The notes under the pieces: model-generated | Told to the model about the DNA's origin: nothing | The model's database searches: none | The model's input: only the letters and a program-made list of their open reading frames with translations | Virus record (IMG/VR): IMGVR_UViG_3300027743_000030 | Coordinates: 1 to 64,000 of that record | Origin: a virus | Strand: one strand, 5' to 3' | Length of the DNA: 64,000 bases | Shown: one piece after another, positions 4,269-55,165 of the stretch | Layout: the number at the start of each line of letters is the position of its first letter | How positions within the stretch are numbered: position 1 is the stretch's first letter | Program-made: the position numbers and the translations under genes

Positions 4269-4308
4269 TTGCGAAGCCCAGGGCAGCCGCTATAATCGAT
4301 TTTCGATT
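4269..4308 (+). promoter_or_regulatory. Candidate sigma-70 promoter with overlapping palindrome
   Basis: TTGCGA at 4269-4274 and TATAAT at 4291-4296 are separated by 16 bases, a good promoter match pointing into the plus-strand operon. The -10 box overlaps a perfect palindrome, AATCGA ttt TCGATT, at 4294-4308, a natural operator. A related 9-mer, CGAAAATCG, lies in the opposite orientation at 4227-4235. The 4149-4500 gap otherwise holds no gene. Confidence 0.5.
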
Positions 4309-4499
4309 AAGAAGTGAGTGTTTGCTACCCTGCTGTTTGACAATTCGAGCGCCGCACGACCCGCGTCCAAAGCGACGTGCGCCCTACCCGCAGCTCGATC
4401 CATAGTCGCTCCAAGTCATGCGCGCTTCGGCATTGCCCCCGAGGATCGAGCCCGACGCGCATAGATGTGGGAGAGACCGAAAACGACTCCATGACAGTG

Positions 4500-4616
4500 T
4501 GACAATACTTAGGACGGCATGACGCGACTCACGTTGCGCTCGTGCCGTCTCAAAGTGTTGCCTTCGCAACACTCGCCGCGCTTGCAGCGGCGCATCTCAA
4601 AATTGGAGTCACGAAA
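4500..4616 (+). promoter_or_regulatory. Three-hairpin intergenic RNA element, copy 1
   Basis: Hairpin 1 pairs GACGGCA (4513-4519) with TGCCGTC (4543-4549). Hairpin 2 pairs AGTGTTGC (4554-4561) with GCAACACT (4566-4573). Hairpin 3 follows with no gap: CGCCGC (4574-4579) pairs with GCGGCG (4587-4592), and its loop contains CTTGCA. GGAGTCAC and the start codon follow. Five more copies lie downstream with different stem sequences but the same plan. Confidence 0.85.
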
Positions 4617-4814
4617 ATGAAAGTAGAATTCAGAACCCACGAATACGAGTGGTCGCACGGCAAGCAGCCGCGCGGTTACGGCTATTGGGCGTTTAGCTTT
4701 CCCGGCACGCAAGCCGACTTCTTTTGGTTTCAAGGCTCGTACAGCGACGCCAAGAAAGCAGCCAAGGACGAAGCGCGCCGCCGCAACTTCGCAGAAGTGA
4801 AGGTGATGCCGTGA
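4617..4814 (+). CDS. Small protein, first gene of the MoxR operon
   Basis: This 65-residue protein starts MKVEFRTHEYEWSHGKQPRG, after GGAGTCAC and the first three-hairpin element. It contains GYGYWAFSF and a lysine-rich helical end, SDAKKAAKDEARRR, giving a mixed alpha-beta pattern like a small dsRBD- or DNA-binding-type fold. That is only a resemblance. The next gene starts inside its stop codon region (GTGA), so the two are coupled. Confidence 0.75.
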   Translation: MKVEFRTHEYEWSHGKQPRGYGYWAFSFPGTQADFFWFQGSYSDAKKAAKDEARRRNFAEVKVMP

Positions 4815-5014
4815 GCACGTCAATCGATCAGATCAGATTGGCTGACGGCTCGCGCGTTCGCTGCGGGCTGATCGTTCACCGCGTTGACGATCCGTTCCAC
4901 GTTGCGCGGATCGAGAAAGTTCACGGCGCAATGAAGCTGACTGTTCAATGGGAGAACGGGTGGCTTGAATTGGGCTGCGAGCCCGACGAATTCCAGCGAT
5001 GGAATGGAGAGTGA
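4811..5014 (+). CDS. Small beta-rich protein, unknown
   Basis: This 67-residue protein has a GTG start overlapping the previous stop. The sequence reads like a short beta barrel (RLADGSRVRCGLIVHRVDDP, then VARIEKVHGAMKLTVQW), perhaps SH3-like. No family is recognised. Its TGA stop is the first base triplet of the second three-hairpin element. Confidence 0.65.
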   Translation: MSTSIDQIRLADGSRVRCGLIVHRVDDPFHVARIEKVHGAMKLTVQWENGWLELGCEPDEFQRWNGE

Positions 5015-5111
5015 TCACTACAGAGCAGCGCCGCGCGCGCTGCTCGATAGTGTTCATCCTGAACACTCGCCGCCTTGCATGCGGCGTTTCTCGAAACATG
5101 AGTCACACATC
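5012..5111 (+). promoter_or_regulatory. Three-hairpin intergenic RNA element, copy 2
   Basis: The element begins at the stop codon with TGATCACTACAGAG. Hairpin 1 pairs GAGCAGCGC (5023-5031) with GCGCTGCTC (5037-5045). Hairpin 2 pairs AGTGTTCA (5049-5056) with TGAACACT (5060-5067). Hairpin 3 abuts it: CGCCGC (5068-5073) pairs with GCGGCG (5081-5086), with loop CTTGCAT. GAGTCAC precedes the MoxR start. Confidence 0.9.
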
Positions 5112-6134
5112 ATGACAAACCACCTTACCGCCCAGGCCGAGGTTTCCATCGCAACGGCAGCCGAGATGATGGAAGATTATACCGAGGCGGGCGACAACGT
5201 GTTCCTTTGGGGTGCACCCGGCATCGGTAAGACCGATATCGTGCACCAGCTCGGAGCGCGGAAGAAACGTTGCGTCCTCGAATTCCACGCAGCCTTGCGT
5301 GAGTCCGTTGATCTGCGCGGCGTTCCTTCCGTTGATCTCAAGACGGGGACCACCAAATGGTTCACGCCTGACGAGCTACCGCAAGCGAAGCGCGACGGCG
5401 AGGAAGGTTATCTGTTCCTCGACGAATTCAATCAAGCAAGCCCGCAGATGCAAGCGGTGCTTGCCGGGTTGGTGCTGTACGGGACGATTGGCGACTATCG
5501 CTTGCCGAAGGGCTGGCGCTGCATCGCTGCGGGCAACCGCGTCTCTGATCGTGCAGCTGCGCAGCGAATGCCCTCGCACATGCGAAACCGTTTCGCGCAC
5601 ATTTACTGTACGCCAGACGTGATTGCGTGGACGAATTGGGCCAGCACGAACGGCGTCGCACCCGAGATGGTTGCTTTCATTCGCTTGCGACGCGAGTTGA
5701 TCCACCGCATGCCTCGCGGTGACGAGAATGCGTTTCCCACGCCGAGGTCACTGACCAAGGCTGCGAAATACATCAACGCCGCTGATGATCGTCGCTTGCG
5801 ATTGTTAGCCGGCCTGATCGGTGACGACGTTGCAGCCGAGTTGAACGGCTTCATCCGGCTTTATCGATCGCTCGGCAGCCTGGAAGATATCGTGGCCAAT
5901 CCCGACCGCGCCAAGATACCGACCGAGCCAAGCGAACGATGGGCAGTCTGCACCGGCCTTGCGCGTCTCGCTGACCGCAAGAATTTCCCGCAGATCATGA
6001 AGTATGCCGCACGGCTCGACGGTGAGCCCGCGACGCTGCTTGTTCATGACGCAACGATGATCAAGCCCGAGCTAAAGCAGACGGCCGCCTATTCGAAGTG
6101 GGCCGTTGAACATTCTGACTTGATCCTACAGTGA
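5112..6134 (+). CDS. MoxR-family AAA+ ATPase
   Basis: This 340-residue ATPase has Walker A GAPGIGKT (34-41), Walker B YLFLDEFN (100-107), a sensor-1 asparagine in AAGN (about 142) and candidate arginine fingers in RNRF (about 158-161). MoxR ATPases act as chaperones that remodel or insert metal into partner proteins, usually with a VWA protein encoded nearby. Here the partners are the DUF3150-like gene and the metallopeptidase/VWA gene downstream. The upstream in-frame extension to 4965 is rejected because the ATG at 5112 follows the RNA element and its GAGTCAC site. The target in the phage cycle is unknown. Confidence 0.9.
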   Translation: MTNHLTAQAEVSIATAAEMMEDYTEAGDNVFLWGAPGIGKTDIVHQLGARKKRCVLEFHAALRESVDLRGVPSVDLKTGTTKWFTPDELPQAKRDGEEGYLFLDEFNQASPQMQAVLAGLVLYGTIGDYRLPKGWRCIAAGNRVSDRAAAQRMPSHMRNRFAHIYCTPDVIAWTNWASTNGVAPEMVAFIRLRRELIHRMPRGDENAFPTPRSLTKAAKYINAADDRRLRLLAGLIGDDVAAELNGFIRLYRSLGSLEDIVANPDRAKIPTEPSERWAVCTGLARLADRKNFPQIMKYAARLDGEPATLLVHDATMIKPELKQTAAYSKWAVEHSDLILQ

Positions 6135-6230
6135 CCACTACAGAGGGCAGCGCACGCGCTGCCTTCGATAGTGTTCATGTGAACACTCGCCCCTTGCAGG
6201 GCGCTGTCAGAAGACAAGGAGTCACAAGTC
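6132..6230 (+). promoter_or_regulatory. Three-hairpin intergenic RNA element, copy 3
   Basis: The element starts at the MoxR stop (TGACCACTACAGAG). Hairpin 1 pairs GGCAGCG (6146-6152) with CGCTGCC (6157-6163). Hairpin 2 pairs AGTGTTC (6170-6176) with GAACACT (6181-6187). Hairpin 3 abuts it: CGCCC (6188-6192) pairs with GGGCG (6199-6203), with loop CTTGCA. AAGGAGTCAC leads to the next ATG. Confidence 0.9.
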
Positions 6231-7289
6231 ATGACAACGAAACTCAAAGGTGCAGCGAAGCGCGAAGCTAAGGGCTTGCCGCCGATCAAGGCGCGCAAGC
6301 CAGTAGCTCCCAAGGCTGCGATGGCGATGATCAAGCCTGCAGCTGCAGACGTGATCAACGTACCGTATCGCGAGCTAACGAAAGCGCCGAGCAAACCCAG
6401 CAAGCCGCTTGCCTCGCCGCTGTCTCGCAAGGCGACGCTTGTGTCAGTCGCTGTTGCACAGTGGACGGCCCGCAAGCTGGACCGCAAGCTGACCAACGAA
6501 GTGTTGCGCTCGAAAGGCGCGACGCCAGATGCCGGCCGGTTCAACAAGTTGCTGATCGAAGCCAAGCACCTCGAAAAAATCGGCTCACTCGTGTCGCAAG
6601 CGCGCAACGCGCACTATCGCTACACCAAGCCGTGGTGCGATGACGGTATGCGAATTCTGCCGAACGAGCTTCACCAGAAGTTCGCCGACGAATTCCGTCG
6701 CATCAAGCGCGAGTTCCACGAGGCGGCCGATGAATTCTGCCGCGACTATCCCTCGTTTATCGAGGAGCGCAGAACGGCGCTTGCGAAGATGTTCAACGAG
6801 GCCGACTACCCGAGCGCGCGGGACATTCGAAGCAAGTTCAAACTCGACTCGAAGTTGTTTCCCGTCCCCGACGTTGGCGACTTTCGCTCTGATACTCTCG
6901 ACGCTGACACGATCGAGGATATCAAGCGCGATCTCGCCGAGACAAACGAACGCGTGTTGAGCGACGCCATGAAGCACTCGGCCGAGCAGATCATCAAAGT
7001 GGTCGGCCACATGTCGGAGAAGCTGCACGAGTACAAGCCGAGCAAGAGCAAGAAGGGCAAGAAAACATTTTTCACCAACTCGCTGGTGGAGAATGTTCGT
7101 GAGCTTGCAGACTTGCTGCCTGCGTTCAACTTCACCAACGATCCCGAGTTGAACCGCATTGCAGCTCGCATGAAGCGCGAGCTATGCCAAGACGATGCCA
7201 AGGAGCTGCGGGTGAGCGAACGCGTGCGCGTCACCGTGCAGAAGTCGGCAGACGACATCCTGAAAGATGTCAACAAGCTGCTAGGCTGA
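6231..7289 (+). CDS. DUF3150-like protein
   Basis: This 352-residue protein has a basic, Ala/Pro/Lys-rich N-terminus (about 1-75), then a long helical region beginning LVSVAVAQWTARKLDRKLT that resembles the phage DUF3150 family. Such proteins are encoded between MoxR-type ATPases and VWA proteins in several phages. That context is matched exactly here, which supports the call. Lysine-rich KSKKGKK lies near residue 275 and the rest is charged and helical. No catalytic motif is visible. It may be an adaptor or substrate of the MoxR/VWA pair, which is inference. Confidence 0.65.
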   Translation: MTTKLKGAAKREAKGLPPIKARKPVAPKAAMAMIKPAAADVINVPYRELTKAPSKPSKPLASPLSRKATLVSVAVAQWTARKLDRKLTNEVLRSKGATPDAGRFNKLLIEAKHLEKIGSLVSQARNAHYRYTKPWCDDGMRILPNELHQKFADEFRRIKREFHEAADEFCRDYPSFIEERRTALAKMFNEADYPSARDIRSKFKLDSKLFPVPDVGDFRSDTLDADTIEDIKRDLAETNERVLSDAMKHSAEQIIKVVGHMSEKLHEYKPSKSKKGKKTFFTNSLVENVRELADLLPAFNFTNDPELNRIAARMKRELCQDDAKELRVSERVRVTVQKSADDILKDVNKLLG

Positions 7290-7383
7290 TCGGCCATAGC
7301 GTGAACGGCGAGCGCGCCTCGCCGTTTGCAGTGGGGCCGTACCTCACTCCGTCCTTGCAGACGGTCAATCAAGGAGTCACACA
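7287..7383 (+). promoter_or_regulatory. Three-hairpin intergenic RNA element, copy 4
   Basis: Hairpin 1 pairs AACGGCGAG (7304-7312) with CTCGCCGTT (7318-7326). Hairpin 2 pairs AGTGGGG (7330-7336) with CCTCACT (7342-7348), using one G-U pair. Hairpin 3 abuts it: CCGTC (7349-7353) pairs with GACGG (7360-7364), with loop CTTGCA. AAGGAGTCAC follows. This is the most diverged copy and gives the clearest compensatory changes. Confidence 0.9.
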
Positions 7384-8772
7384 ATGGAAAATCATGACGT
7401 GGACAAGACAGCTGCTCAACGCGTTGCAAAAGCGCGCGCCGAGCTGATCTTGTCGCAAGTGTTCTATTCCGTGCTGGTATCGAACGTTGATCCCAAGCCG
7501 TCGCGAGCCGTTCCCACGATGGCGACCGATGGGCGCAACCACTTCTATAATCCAGACTTCATTGCGACGTTGACACAGACACAGCTGCTCGCAGTGCAAG
7601 CGCACGAAAGCGAACACGATGCCCGCCGCCATCACAGCCGCAGAAACGGCCGTGATCCCGAGGAGTGGAACATCGCTTGCGATCTCGCAATCAATCCTGA
7701 TCTGCAAGACGCAGGCTTCCAGCTCCCCGAGTGGGTGCTGCTCGATCGGAAATACCGAGGCATGTCTGCCGAGGATATCTACCGAACGCGGGAGCTTGAT
7801 CGCGCCAAGCAGCAACAGCAGGACGATGATCAAGACGAGCCTTCGGAAGAGGAACTTGACGACGCCGAGGCCGAGGCGAACAAGGGCGACGCTGACGACG
7901 ACGACAACGACAACGACAACGACCACGGCGACTGCAACGAAAACGAAGACGAGGACAGCAGCGGCGACACCGGCGACGGTGACGGCGACGAGCAGTCAGA
8001 GGATGACGCCAGCCCCGGCGACGGGGAGGGTGAAGGCAAGGGCGATCCGACAAGCAGCGGCGACCCTGGCCGCATGGGCGAAGTGCTCGACGCTTCCGAG
8101 AACGTCGCCGAGCTGGCAGCTGCAGACAGTCAGTGGGAAACAATCCTGCGACAAGCTGCATTCCTTGCCGAGAAACGCGGCACGATGCCCGGCCATGTCA
8201 CGCGTGAAATCAAGCGCGCTGACAACCCGCCGCAAGACTGGCGTGAGACGTTGCGAGCATACTTTGATCAAGGCTCGCTCAAGATCGAAACATGGAACCG
8301 GCCCAATCGTCGCTTTGCCGGTGCGGGCATTTACTTGCCCGGCCAGCGTCGCGACGGCATCAACCGCGCCGTGTTTCTGATCGATACCAGCGGCTCGATG
8401 GATCAAGTTGCGCTCGCTTGCATCAACAATGAAGCCCAAGCCGCGCTGGACGACGGTGTGCTTGATGAAGTTGACGTGATCTATGGCGACACGCGAGTCA
8501 CTCGTGTCGACAACTACCGCCAAGGCGACGAAATACAATTCGATCCCCGAGGCGGGGGCGGCACTGATCTCAAGCCGCTGTTCAAGCACGTAGCAGACGA
8601 AATTGAGGACGCGTCCTTGATCGTCTGTTTCTCAGACATGGAAATTGGCGATCCTGGCCCCGAGCCCGCGTGCCCCGTGCTGTTCGCAGCAACGGGGTAT
8701 CCCGAGAGCGTGCGCCGTTATCTCGCCAATGCTCCGTGGGGCGCGCCCGGCATCGATGTCGGCACGCATTGA
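7384..8772 (+). CDS. Putative metallopeptidase with VWA-like domain (DUF2201 type)
   Basis: This is a 462-residue protein. The N-terminal domain has a zinc-peptidase motif, HESEH (74-78), followed by EWNIACDLAIN, the layout of the putative metallopeptidase domain found before VWA-like domains in DUF2201 proteins. Residues of roughly 135-225 form a very acidic Asp/Asn/Glu linker. The C-terminal VWA-like domain carries a MIDAS-type DTSGSMD (about 333-339), GGGGTDLKPL and a later acidic residue in CFSDME. Such proteins are classical partners of MoxR ATPases. The HExxH suggests it may cleave or bind metal, but activity is not shown by sequence alone. Confidence 0.85.
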   Translation: MENHDVDKTAAQRVAKARAELILSQVFYSVLVSNVDPKPSRAVPTMATDGRNHFYNPDFIATLTQTQLLAVQAHESEHDARRHHSRRNGRDPEEWNIACDLAINPDLQDAGFQLPEWVLLDRKYRGMSAEDIYRTRELDRAKQQQQDDDQDEPSEEELDDAEAEANKGDADDDDNDNDNDHGDCNENEDEDSSGDTGDGDGDEQSEDDASPGDGEGEGKGDPTSSGDPGRMGEVLDASENVAELAAADSQWETILRQAAFLAEKRGTMPGHVTREIKRADNPPQDWRETLRAYFDQGSLKIETWNRPNRRFAGAGIYLPGQRRDGINRAVFLIDTSGSMDQVALACINNEAQAALDDGVLDEVDVIYGDTRVTRVDNYRQGDEIQFDPRGGGGTDLKPLFKHVADEIEDASLIVCFSDMEIGDPGPEPACPVLFAATGYPESVRRYLANAPWGAPGIDVGTH

Positions 8773-8867
8773 TCACTAAGCGCGGCCCTGCGGGGCCGCG
8801 TCATAGTGTTCAATCGAACACCCCGCACTTGCAGCGGGTGATCTGCAAAAGGAAAGGAAGTCACATC
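8770..8867 (+). promoter_or_regulatory. Three-hairpin intergenic RNA element, copy 5
   Basis: The element starts at the stop codon (TGATCACTAAG). Hairpin 1 pairs CGCGGCCC (8781-8788) with GGGCCGCG (8793-8800). Hairpin 2 pairs GTGTTC (8806-8811) with GAACAC (8816-8821). Hairpin 3 abuts it: CCCGC (8822-8826) pairs with GCGGG (8834-8838), with loop ACTTGCA. GGAAGTCAC precedes the ATG. Confidence 0.9.
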
Positions 8868-9134
8868 ATGACTGCTACCAAACGTAAACCGAGCCCCGTC
8901 ATGCAACGGGCCGGGCGCGACGCGCGCGTCAGCAGGGAGGTCAATGCTGCTCTGGCTCAAGTCGAACGCGAGTTGATCGCTATCATCAAAAAAATCTGCG
9001 CTCCACGCTACAAGCAGAAAGAGACGATCAGCCCCGCTCAAGCCTATCGTCTCGCCAATCAGCGTCATCGTGGACCGGGACCGACGCCAGCGCGGCTGAT
9101 GTACAAGATACAAAACGGCAGCAAAGTACCGTGA
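8868..9134 (+). CDS. Small basic protein, unknown
   Basis: This 88-residue basic protein starts MTATKRKPSPVMQRAGRDAR at the ATG following the fifth element. It has a helical core (VNAALAQVERELIAIIKKI) and an Arg/Pro-rich end. The composition suggests nucleic-acid binding, but no family is recognised. Its stop codon begins the sixth element. Confidence 0.65.
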   Translation: MTATKRKPSPVMQRAGRDARVSREVNAALAQVERELIAIIKKICAPRYKQKETISPAQAYRLANQRHRGPGPTPARLMYKIQNGSKVP

Positions 9135-9227
9135 TCACTGCAGAGGGGCTGCAACGTGCAGCCCTTCGACAGTGCTCATCCGAGCACTCCCGCCTTGCAG
9201 CGGGTTATCTGAAAAGGAGTCACGTCA
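9132..9227 (+). promoter_or_regulatory. Three-hairpin intergenic RNA element, copy 6
   Basis: The element starts at the stop codon (TGATCACTGCAGAG). Hairpin 1 pairs GGGCTGCA (9146-9153) with TGCAGCCC (9157-9164). Hairpin 2 pairs AGTGCTC (9171-9177) with GAGCACT (9182-9188). Hairpin 3 abuts it: CCCGC (9189-9193) pairs with GCGGG (9200-9204), with loop CTTGCA. AAGGAGTCAC leads to the next ATG. Confidence 0.9.
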
Positions 9228-9398
9228 ATGGAACCCTATACAATCTTTCTGATCGTCTGCGCTGTCTTGGGCGTTCTGCTCATTCGCTACATGGGCGGCA
9301 ATAACCCATTCACCACGCGGCTTTGCAATGCGTGTCGCGAAGTCATCAATGACCGTGCGGAAATCTGCCCGCACTGCCACACCGCGACCGGGAAGTGA
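9228..9398 (+). CDS. Small membrane-anchored zinc-ribbon protein
   Basis: This 56-residue protein has one N-terminal transmembrane helix (YTIFLIVCAVLGVLLIRYMG) and a C-terminal zinc ribbon made of CNAC and CPHC pairs. The sixth three-hairpin element with AAGGAGTCAC supports the ATG. Zinc ribbons on membrane anchors often bind proteins or nucleic acid at the membrane. The function here is unknown. Confidence 0.75.
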   Translation: MEPYTIFLIVCAVLGVLLIRYMGGNNPFTTRLCNACREVINDRAEICPHCHTATGK

Positions 9399-11316: not shown

Positions 11317-11679
11317 GTGAAAGCGATCTCAATCAAGCAGCCGTGGGCGCACTTGATCATTGCTGGCTTGAAGCCGATCGAGAACCGGACGTGGACGACA
11401 CGCTATCGCGGGCCACTTTTGATTCATGCGTCGCGACGCATGTGCGTGGAAGTCGAAGCGATCGAGCAAGCCTTCGGCGTCGCGATCGATCGCAAGCAGC
11501 TGCATTTCGGCGCGCTGATCGGTGTCGTTGATCTGATCGACGTGGTGAAGGAATCGGCATCGCCCTGGTTCGAAGGGCCGTTCGGTTGGGTCATGAAGAA
11601 CGCGCGACCGATCAGGCCCGTCCCTTGGCGCGGCCAGCTCAGTCTTTTTGATGTCGCCCGCAAACTGGAGGAGCTGTGA
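11317..11679 (+). CDS. ASCH domain protein
   Basis: This 120-residue protein has a GTG start with AAAAGGAG upstream. The pattern ISIKQPWAHLIIAGLKPIEN, then TWTTRYRGPLLIHASRR, is the ASCH signature: a PUA-like beta barrel that binds RNA or modified nucleotides. Phage ASCH proteins are proposed to act on RNA, and some family members are nucleases or amidohydrolases. The GALIGVVDLIDV strand and C-terminal PWRGQLSLFDV complete the fold. It is coupled to the next gene by ATGA overlap. Confidence 0.88.
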   Translation: MKAISIKQPWAHLIIAGLKPIENRTWTTRYRGPLLIHASRRMCVEVEAIEQAFGVAIDRKQLHFGALIGVVDLIDVVKESASPWFEGPFGWVMKNARPIRPVPWRGQLSLFDVARKLEEL

Positions 11680-11865: not shown

Positions 11866-12063
11866 GTGGTTAAGAAAAGCAATCCGATTTTTGAATCTGA
11901 AATGTGCCGCTCCAATCGCGTTCAAGGATTGACCGATGGGCGGCGCGATCTCAAAGCCGAACTCGATGCTGTGCACGCCCTCATGTTAGAGCGCGAGCGG
12001 CAGGGATTGGTCGAAAATGTCGGCTGGCGGAAATGGGTCGTGCTCTATGGGGGTAAGTCATGA
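11866..12063 (+). CDS. Small helical protein upstream of resolvase
   Basis: This 65-residue protein has a GTG start behind AAAGGAAG. It carries a short helical region (LKAELDAVHALMLERERQG). The resolvase ATG overlaps its end. Function unknown. Confidence 0.6.
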   Translation: MVKKSNPIFESEMCRSNRVQGLTDGRRDLKAELDAVHALMLERERQGLVENVGWRKWVVLYGGKS

Positions 12064-12611
12064 CTGCCTACGGCTATGCGCGCGTTTCGACGCGCGATCA
12101 AGACTTGAGCGGCCAGCTTGCCGAGCTGACGGCCGCCGGCTGCGCTCACGTCCATCAAGAGAAACGCTCCGGGGCAAAGACCGACCGCCCAGAGCTTGCA
12201 AACGTCCTTGCCAAACTTGGCGCGGGCGACGTGCTGATGGTGACGCGGCTCGATCGGCTGGCACGATCGACGCGCGATCTGCTCAACGTCATCAATGAAG
12301 TGTCAGCGCGCGGGGCCGGCTTTCGCTCGCTCAAAGATGCGTGGGCCGACACCACCACACCGCATGGGCGGCTGATGCTGACAATCCTGGGCGGGCTCGC
12401 TGAATTCGAGCGCGAGCTGATCAGAGCACGCACCGGCGAGGGGCGGCAGCGCGCACAAGCGCGCGGCGTGCGCTTCGGCCGGCCGGGCAAGCTCACGAGC
12501 GCTGATCGCCGCGCGATCCGCGATCGACTGCAGCGCGGCGAAACGCAAGTATCGATCGCGAAAGCTTTCGGCGTGCACGAGGCGACGATCAGCAGGAGGA
12601 AGCGAACGTGA
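12060..12611 (+). CDS. Serine recombinase (resolvase/invertase family)
   Basis: This 183-residue protein has the small resolvase/invertase length. The catalytic serine is S10 in YARVSTRDQ, with conserved R8 and Q13. The second catalytic cluster is RLDRLARSTRDL (about 62-73). TILGGLAEFERELI is the usual E-helix dimer region, and a C-terminal helix-turn-helix (VSIAKAFGVHEATISRR) binds the crossover site. Enzymes of this kind resolve multimers or invert short segments. It is not a large serine integrase. In a phage without a visible integrase, a multimer-resolution role is plausible. Confidence 0.92.
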   Translation: MTAYGYARVSTRDQDLSGQLAELTAAGCAHVHQEKRSGAKTDRPELANVLAKLGAGDVLMVTRLDRLARSTRDLLNVINEVSARGAGFRSLKDAWADTTTPHGRLMLTILGGLAEFERELIRARTGEGRQRAQARGVRFGRPGKLTSADRRAIRDRLQRGETQVSIAKAFGVHEATISRRKRT

Positions 12612-54730: not shown

Positions 54731-55165
54731 TCAGCTGCCGCTTTGCCGGTCCTCTTGCCGTCGCTCCTCCTGCCGCTGCGGATAGGCCGCTCGTGCCTGC
54801 GACTGCGGCTTGGGCTGATCTTTCTGCTGCTTGTCATCCTCGCGCTTGCGGCGACCTTGCTGCCTGCCACCGAACTCGGCCGGCATCTTCCCCGGCTCCA
54901 AACCGGGCGTGACTTCGCTCTCAATCAGATCACCGGCCTTGATCGCCAGAACAAGGTTGGCGGTAAGCGGTGTCACCACGAAACGATCATGCGGAATGGG
55001 CATATCGTTGATGTCATAGACCACGCGGGGCGATTCATAATCGTTCCCCTCCTTGTCCTGAAACGTGTCCGTGGCTGCTTTTACCGACAGCATAAGGGCC
55101 TCGGTTTCGGCCAGGGTTTCCTTGGTGGCGGGGCGCTGGTTCAGCGTCGGGGCGTTGCGAGCCAT
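54731..55165 (-). CDS. Hypothetical protein with low-complexity end
   Basis: This is a 144-residue protein. The first 100 residues are acidic and globular (KEGNDYESPRVVYDINDMPI, then DRFVVTPLTANLVLAIKAGD). The last 45 are Gln/Arg/Lys-rich and probably disordered. It lies between the tail-terminator-like gene and the sheath gene, a place often held by small connector or sheath accessory proteins. No family is recognised. Confidence 0.65.
   Translation of the reverse strand: MARNAPTLNQRPATKETLAETEALMLSVKAATDTFQDKEGNDYESPRVVYDINDMPIPHDRFVVTPLTANLVLAIKAGDLIESEVTPGLEPGKMPAEFGGRQQGRRKREDDKQQKDQPKPQSQARAAYPQRQEERRQEDRQSGS

Follow-up and report, generated by a model that had tools for sequence, protein, structure and literature searches.

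The question raised by the locus at positions 4500 to 9227 of the virus record IMGVR_UViG_3300027743_000030 is what a structured RNA element, repeated along a single operon, may be doing there. The window, that is, the whole stretch of DNA analysed here, covers 64 kb out of the 65,017-base record, whose source is a tailed phage as judged by its terminase, and the operon lies on the plus strand from 4617 to about 10360, the strand of all features located below unless noted otherwise. The operon leader and five intergenic gaps carry one element each, 96 to 117 nucleotides (nt) long and arranged as segment A, hairpin 1, segment B, segment C, hairpin 3 and ribosome site; segment A includes the upstream stop codon or lies just 3' of it (typical sequence TGATCACTA), and the typical sequences of segments B and C are TAGTGTTCA and GAACACT, respectively. 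The analysis, whose structural claims all derive from sequence comparison or thermodynamics, supports a selected RNA structure with four covarying helices, and the element is most likely a bistable intercistronic RNA which would read out whether the upstream gene is translated or processed.

The initial annotation had described six intergenic gaps, each with three hairpins and then a GGAGTCAC-like ribosome site, five of them starting at an upstream stop codon and four of these with TGAxCACT. This was verified for all six gaps (4500-4616, 5012-5111, 6132-6230, 7287-7383, 8770-8867 and 9132-9227), and the five TGA starts and four TGAxCACT starts were found as described. All six copies carry CTTGCA in the hairpin 3 loop, the hairpin 3 stems that had been listed do pair, and the zero linker between hairpins 2 and 3 is found in all six window copies and in 44 of the family's 47 elements. 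Five copies are indeed intergenic, but copy 1 lies in the operon leader and has no upstream gene. The element had also been thought to match no known RNA motif, and no Rfam 15 family was matched at the gathering threshold by the window or by L018, L031, L043 and L046 (other sequences analysed are designated by L numbers); the best sub-threshold matches were at chance level.

Covariation of the four strands

Forty-seven elements were parsed from 12 phage contigs using hairpins 1, 2 and 3 only. Since a MAFFT alignment misaligned the fast-changing arms, and the RNAalifold/Infernal model made from it gave no pairs, covariation was measured by strand-swap permutation, in which pairing between strands of the same element is compared with pairing between strands exchanged among elements, for all segments. 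The results showed that all three hairpins covary, as had been expected for a selected RNA structure, with z values of -18 for hairpin 1, -14 for hairpin 3 and -11.5 for hairpin 2, which is formed by B and C. A further helix, A:B, was found with a z of -8.3, and the next-best pair (z -3.5) was internal to hairpin 3. The three-hairpin plan was thus right as far as it went and had missed the helix that makes the element bistable: the first 12 or so bases, previously taken as sequence preceding hairpin 1, are in fact a fourth pairing strand.

The A:B helix played no part in parsing; its matched energy was -10.1 kcal/mol in comparison to -7.6 kcal/mol for swapped strands, and 0 of 20,000 permutations reached the matched value. 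Elements of related phages are not independent and the permutation figures are not strict probabilities; a test in which each of the 22 unique B sequences was represented once, which lessens this dependence and does not remove it, gave z values of -5.1 for A:B and -8.7 for B:C. With positions set independently of hairpin 2, the z of B:C was -11.2. In the orthologous gap between the MoxR and DUF3150 genes of 25 phages, in some of which the parser absorbed A:B into hairpin 1, A:B covaries as well (z -4.6, 0 of 20,000 permutations). The matched changes in A:B include CACTA/TAGTG, CACTG/CAGTG, CAATACT/AGTGTTG, CGGCC/GGCCG, CACACTG/CAGTGTG, TTGTTGC/GCAGCAA and TGATCGCTA/TAGTGATCA.

Isolated internal non-Watson-Crick pairs on the plus strand of hairpins 1 to 3 comprise 20 G-U and 1 A-C, a count in which the parser favours G-U, and in A:B, where the register was set by Watson-Crick pairs alone, 9 G-U and 3 A-C. 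Because G-U pairs exceed A-C pairs, an asymmetry that DNA palindromes would not show, the element appears to act as plus-sense RNA and not as DNA. This bears on a reading at the level of DNA, by which the segments would be inverted repeats serving as operator half-sites or as recombination sites between gene cassettes. Segments A, B and C are mutually inverted repeats, and a pair of copies with identical hairpin 1 arms in phage L006 flanks an extra two-gene segment, which suggests that recombination at elements occurs; however, the repeats vary between copies of one genome yet remain complementary within each copy, the G-U over A-C asymmetry is strand-specific, and all copies have a single orientation relative to stop and start codons. 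We regard the DNA reading as very improbable.

The strand-swap comparison bears on the idea of a static spacer, a standard block of stable hairpins which would stabilise the mRNA or insulate each gap from Rho without any switching. The GC-richness and strong folding of the elements, the constant gap lengths and the retention of hairpin 1 alone in some relatives (L010, L048 and L105) are all in keeping with such a block. In a static block, though, B would not have to match A as well as C, and both pairings covary on the 22 unique B sequences, so that a purely static role seems improbable.

Two predicted states and what they may sense

Since A:B and B:C both use strand B, they are mutually exclusive. 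Pairing of B with A would lengthen hairpin 1 into a stem of about 19 base pairs (bp) rooted at the stop codon, while pairing of B with C would form hairpin 2 in direct stacking contact with hairpin 3. On average, the two states lie 1.9 kcal/mol apart in free energy, and in 31 of the 47 elements they are within 3 kcal/mol of each other, with mean predicted occupancies of 0.68 for B:A and 0.41 for B:C. When segment A was masked, i.e., held single-stranded, the predicted occupancy of B:C went to 0.87, and exceeded 0.5 in 41 of 47 elements. The upstream stop codon lies 6 to 24 nt 5' of hairpin 1 in 40 of 47 elements. Copy 2 of L006 takes its stop from a 29-codon reading frame, and copy 1 of the window, with no upstream gene, is preceded by a conserved 3-codon open reading frame that ends at segment A, in a leader block identical in L006. 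Comparable short leader frames were seen in L043 and perhaps L094; such frames are common by chance and were given little weight.

Our preferred reading, held with a confidence a little short of even, is that each gap is a bistable switch which senses termination on the upstream gene and ties the expression of the next gene to it. A ribosome terminating on the upstream gene would cover segment A and free B for the B:C form, and the A:B form would persist where the upstream gene is untranslated. The expression of each gene could in this way be tied to its neighbour's translation over a gap of about 95 nt, beyond ordinary stop/start coupling. We infer the ribosome as the trigger and the translation or stability of the next cistron as the output; candidate outputs of the B:C form are ribosome standby, mRNA ends and protein binding to hairpin 3. 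More tentatively still, the element may represent a new class of iterated cis-acting switch, in which each wide junction has its own translation-termination sensor: the stop-codon segment and a second strand would compete for a shared partner, and the arrival of the ribosome would relay expression from cistron to cistron.

Several observations weigh against this termination-sensing switch. The predicted access of the ribosome site is about the same in the two states (0.34 vs 0.35), the leader mini-frame of copy 1 has no good ribosome site at normal spacing, and segment A lies partly outside the footprint of a terminating ribosome in several copies. No reading frame ends near a few elements (L040 at 7213 and L029 at 9695), and an unrelated phage, L178, has the A-hairpin 1-B unit without C or hairpin 3. 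Stop-codon adjacency could, moreover, just reflect the compactness of phage genomes.

Three other candidates were tried and rejected. Output by sequestration of the ribosome site was discarded, as the two states have the same predicted access and the site covaries with no segment. The motif GACTCC was considered as an anti-ribosome-site strand in leaders; it occurs in the window, L006, L043 and L046 and not in L030 and L056. Stop-codon readthrough into the next gene would need distances that keep frame, and the stop-to-ATG distances of 100, 99, 97, 98 and 96 do not.

The two pairings of B also admit a reading as a site of RNA processing. The summed length of hairpin 1 and A:B is 18.7 ± 1.8 bp, a tight range for a sum whose components vary; the terminal loops are small and there is an internal junction. 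The whole is an interrupted intercistronic stem of about two helical turns, as in T7-like RNase III sites. The RNase III sites of the T7 early region are interrupted intercistronic stems repeated along the transcript 5' of ribosome sites, and the present element likewise places interrupted intercistronic stems repeatedly on one phage transcript; to our knowledge, the T7 sites have no refolding strand C, conserved hairpin 3 loop or systematic overlap with stop codons. By analogy, a T7-like site that refolds after cleavage is the main rival, although we consider it unlikely. After cleavage, B on the downstream mRNA would refold with C, and the 5'-terminal hairpin so placed on hairpin 3 would protect the cistron, the two pairings of B being the states before and after processing and not a translation sensor. 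The tight stem length, small terminal loops and internal junction fit such a site, which would also account for why B needs two pairings; it does not, however, call for an A segment that begins at the stop codon or is supplied by the leader reading frame of copy 1, and hairpin 1 by itself can be as short as 7 bp.

The near-invariant sequences of the element are only the hairpin 3 loop and GGAGTC, while the stems vary. The palindromic TGCA of the loop had earlier been proposed to allow kissing between copies, an idea which found no support, as the hairpin 3 loops of relatives are palindromic only in part and the swap test gave no specific loop pairing except with hairpin 3's own neighbouring segments. 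The near-invariance of loop and GGAGTC would fit a candidate RNA-binding protein, of phage or host origin, that recognises the hairpin 3 loop (CTTGCA/CTTGCAA) and regulates the operon genes jointly, and one loop tends to run across the copies of a phage with other loops in other phages. Against such a protein site, some phages mix loops (L046 has CTTGCA, CTTGCAA and CTTGCT), and A:B would be left unexplained; as a replacement for the switch we find it quite improbable, and it could be an added layer rather than an alternative. As proteins with an ASCH domain have been linked to RNA, the ASCH-domain protein encoded at 11317-11676, just 3' of the operon, is by analogy a possible candidate partner of the element; L006 shows a similar reading frame.

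Relation to known systems

No description of the present element was found in open-licence papers. The trp and erm attenuators choose between mutually exclusive hairpins by ribosome position on an upstream frame, and are single leaders with a stalling signal. In the present element, in contrast, each real upstream gene would itself serve as the sensing frame, and neither a terminator nor a clear anti-ribosome-site helix is present.

The nearest published parallel is the SAS/ESAS system of Cluster K mycobacteriophages, whose repeats stand just 5' of many start codons and include the ribosome site (Pope et al. 2011, PMC3203893). The likeness lies in short elements repeated 5' of start codons within one phage genome with the ribosome site included. 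The elements of that system are conserved per gene family, and about half of them contain inverted repeats; in ESAS, the departures in the left and right arms lend no support to base pairing, and the authors favour DNA-protein binding (PMC3203893). The present element differs in its strongly supported pairing, its third strand at the stop codon and its fixed loop; the 13-bp SAS start-codon repeat GGGATAGGAGCCC was not found, the conserved sequence here being GGAGTC, and in place of 17-bp imperfect inverted repeats without compensatory pairing, as in ESAS, the arms covary strongly.

A second parallel is RNA-unfolding coupling, as in MS2 coat-lysis and f1 VII-IX, where upstream translation alters the RNA structure of the junction; in the known cases the downstream ribosome site is sequestered and the genes mostly overlap or are very close (PMC12548453). 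The present element would resemble these if a ribosome at the end of the upstream gene brought about the rearrangement that is predicted in silico, on masking of segment A, for 41 of 47 elements. It differs in the gap of about 95 nt, in the presence of an element at each wide junction, and in a predicted ribosome-site access that is independent of state, rather than hidden when uncoupled and open when coupled.

According to a 2025 review the mechanism of translational coupling is not firmly established (PMC12548453), and the many paired variants of these elements could offer a way to test it. As a rule, a bistable RNA is a single element in a leader, whereas here there are six independently diverged copies in one phage and dozens in relatives. 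Because of these many diverged copies, in which B keeps its complementarity to the stop-codon segment as well as to C, the logic of the putative switch can be read from natural variation. If confirmed, it would provide a modular way to coordinate the genes of one complex (MoxR ATPase, DUF3150 and vWA protein) over long distances between cistrons, and polycistronic design would gain a portable part.

The six elements of the window

Copy 1 follows the leader block GACCGAAAACGACTCCATGACAGTGTGACAATACTTA at 4475..4511, identical in L006, within which the 3-codon frame ATG-ACA-GTG-TGA (4491-4502) places its stop at the start of segment A (4500..4511, TGACAATACTTA, which pairs with B). Hairpin 1 occupies 4512..4550, hairpin 2 4554..4573 (B = AGTGTTGC, C = GCAACACT) and hairpin 3 4574..4592, and the ribosome site GGAGTC at 4605..4610 precedes the ATG at 4617. 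In copy 2 the TGA of segment A (5012..5022, TGATCACTACA) is the upstream stop, followed by hairpin 1 (5023..5045), the B/C hairpin 2 (5049..5067), hairpin 3 with CTTGCA in its loop (5068..5086) and the ribosome site TGAGTC (5099..5104) of the MoxR gene, with ATG at 5112. Copy 3 has segment A at 6132..6142, hairpin 1 at 6143..6166, the B/C hairpin 2 at 6170..6187, hairpin 3 at 6188..6203 and GGAGTC at 6218..6223 before the DUF3150 ATG at 6231.

Segment A of copy 4 (7287..7300, TGATCGGCCATAGC) is altered jointly with B; hairpin 1 follows at 7301..7329, hairpin 2 at 7330..7348 (B = AGTGGGGCCG, C = CCTCACT), hairpin 3 at 7349..7364 and GGAGTC at 7373..7378, ahead of the vWA ATG at 7384. Copy 5 comprises segment A (8770..8779), hairpin 1 (8780..8801), the B/C hairpin 2 (8806..8821), hairpin 3 (8822..8838) and the site GGAAGTC (8856..8862), with ATG at 8868. 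The CACTG of segment A in copy 6 (9132..9142, TGATCACTGCA) covaries with CAGTG of B, and is followed by hairpin 1 at 9143..9167, the B/C hairpin 2 at 9171..9188, hairpin 3 at 9189..9204 and GGAGTC at 9216..9221, with ATG at 9228.

A blind scan of both strands of the window for hairpin 1, hairpin 2, hairpin 3 and a purine-rich site in succession recovered five of the six copies, with one extra match on the minus strand at 54741, in comparison to a mean of 0.8 matches in ten block-shuffled control windows. The copy at 4500 was missed because its longer hairpin 1 failed the filter.

Occurrence in related phages

The operon and its elements were also found in a sister phage (L004/L007), in L005/L006 with seven element copies and a MoxR protein 88% identical, and in many more IMG/VR contigs whose MoxR proteins are 38-70% identical. 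Copies 1, 5 and 6 of the sister phage match those of the window exactly, and changes in copies 2 to 4 fall mostly in loops and linkers; its single stem-arm base change, GAACACT to GAGCACT, retains the pair. Wider relatives (L010, L033, L036, L120 and others) show the plan with other hairpin 3 loops or reduced to hairpin 1, the loops including CGCAA, CCGCAAC, TCGCAAC, CTAGCAA, CTTGCT and others, only some of them palindromic. In L031, L043, L046, L030 and similar sequences, many hairpins 3 have a 5-bp stem and the 7-nt loop CUUGCAA; the likeness to a tRNA anticodon arm (anticodon UGC) is probably a coincidence, because other loops break the pattern.

Longer DNA patterns retrieve the element chiefly within this group of uncultured phages. 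The first 25 kb of the window had no megablast match among phages, and DUF3150 proteins in phage records were 29% identical, with plasmid and chromosomal relatives distant too (best in alphaproteobacteria, 42%). The closest cellular DUF3150 relatives are alphaproteobacterial, which is only a hint as to the host.

Reduced forms were also seen. L010:1-6324 and L116 carry the same operon with mostly hairpin 1 alone plus (A)AGGAG, and in some of their gaps pairing persists between the TGAT stop region and an ATCA 3' of hairpin 1. At L178:8255-8295 an A-hairpin 1-B unit, TGATCACTAAGG...CCTCATAGTGTTCA, lies directly at the 3' end of a small gene; C and hairpin 3 are both missing, the stretch has no detectable MoxR/DUF3150/vWA operon, and the unit seems to be an independent module. 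At L006:12205-12800 two adjacent copies with identical hairpin 1 arms lie on either side of a two-gene segment that the window lacks, which suggests that this cassette was gained by recombination or conversion at the elements.

Operon and neighbouring genes

The first two products of the operon, starting from the ATG at 4617, are small proteins, followed by a MoxR-type AAA ATPase (ATG 5112), a DUF3150 protein (ATG 6231), a DUF2201 vWA/metallopeptidase-like protein (7384-8769), a small protein (ATG 8868), a zinc-ribbon protein (ATG 9228) and a DUF7694 protein (9404), with a further short open reading frame. The junctions of the window operon are bimodal, at -4 to +5 nt without the element and 93-97 nt with it. 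No terminator-like site, defined as a GC-rich stem followed by a U run, was found on the plus strand inside the six gaps. The sole sigma-70-like promoter match near the operon, TTGCGA-16-TATAAT at 4269..4296 upstream of the leader, is weak, since 1 match was found in comparison to a chance expectation of 1.6. The 7384-8769 protein is tagged 'HNH endonuclease' through PHROG 1314, while Pfam gives DUF2201 without an HNH domain; this label, probably a mistaken one, has spread to many phage records. A serine recombinase (resolvase) gene lies near the operon at 12060-12608.

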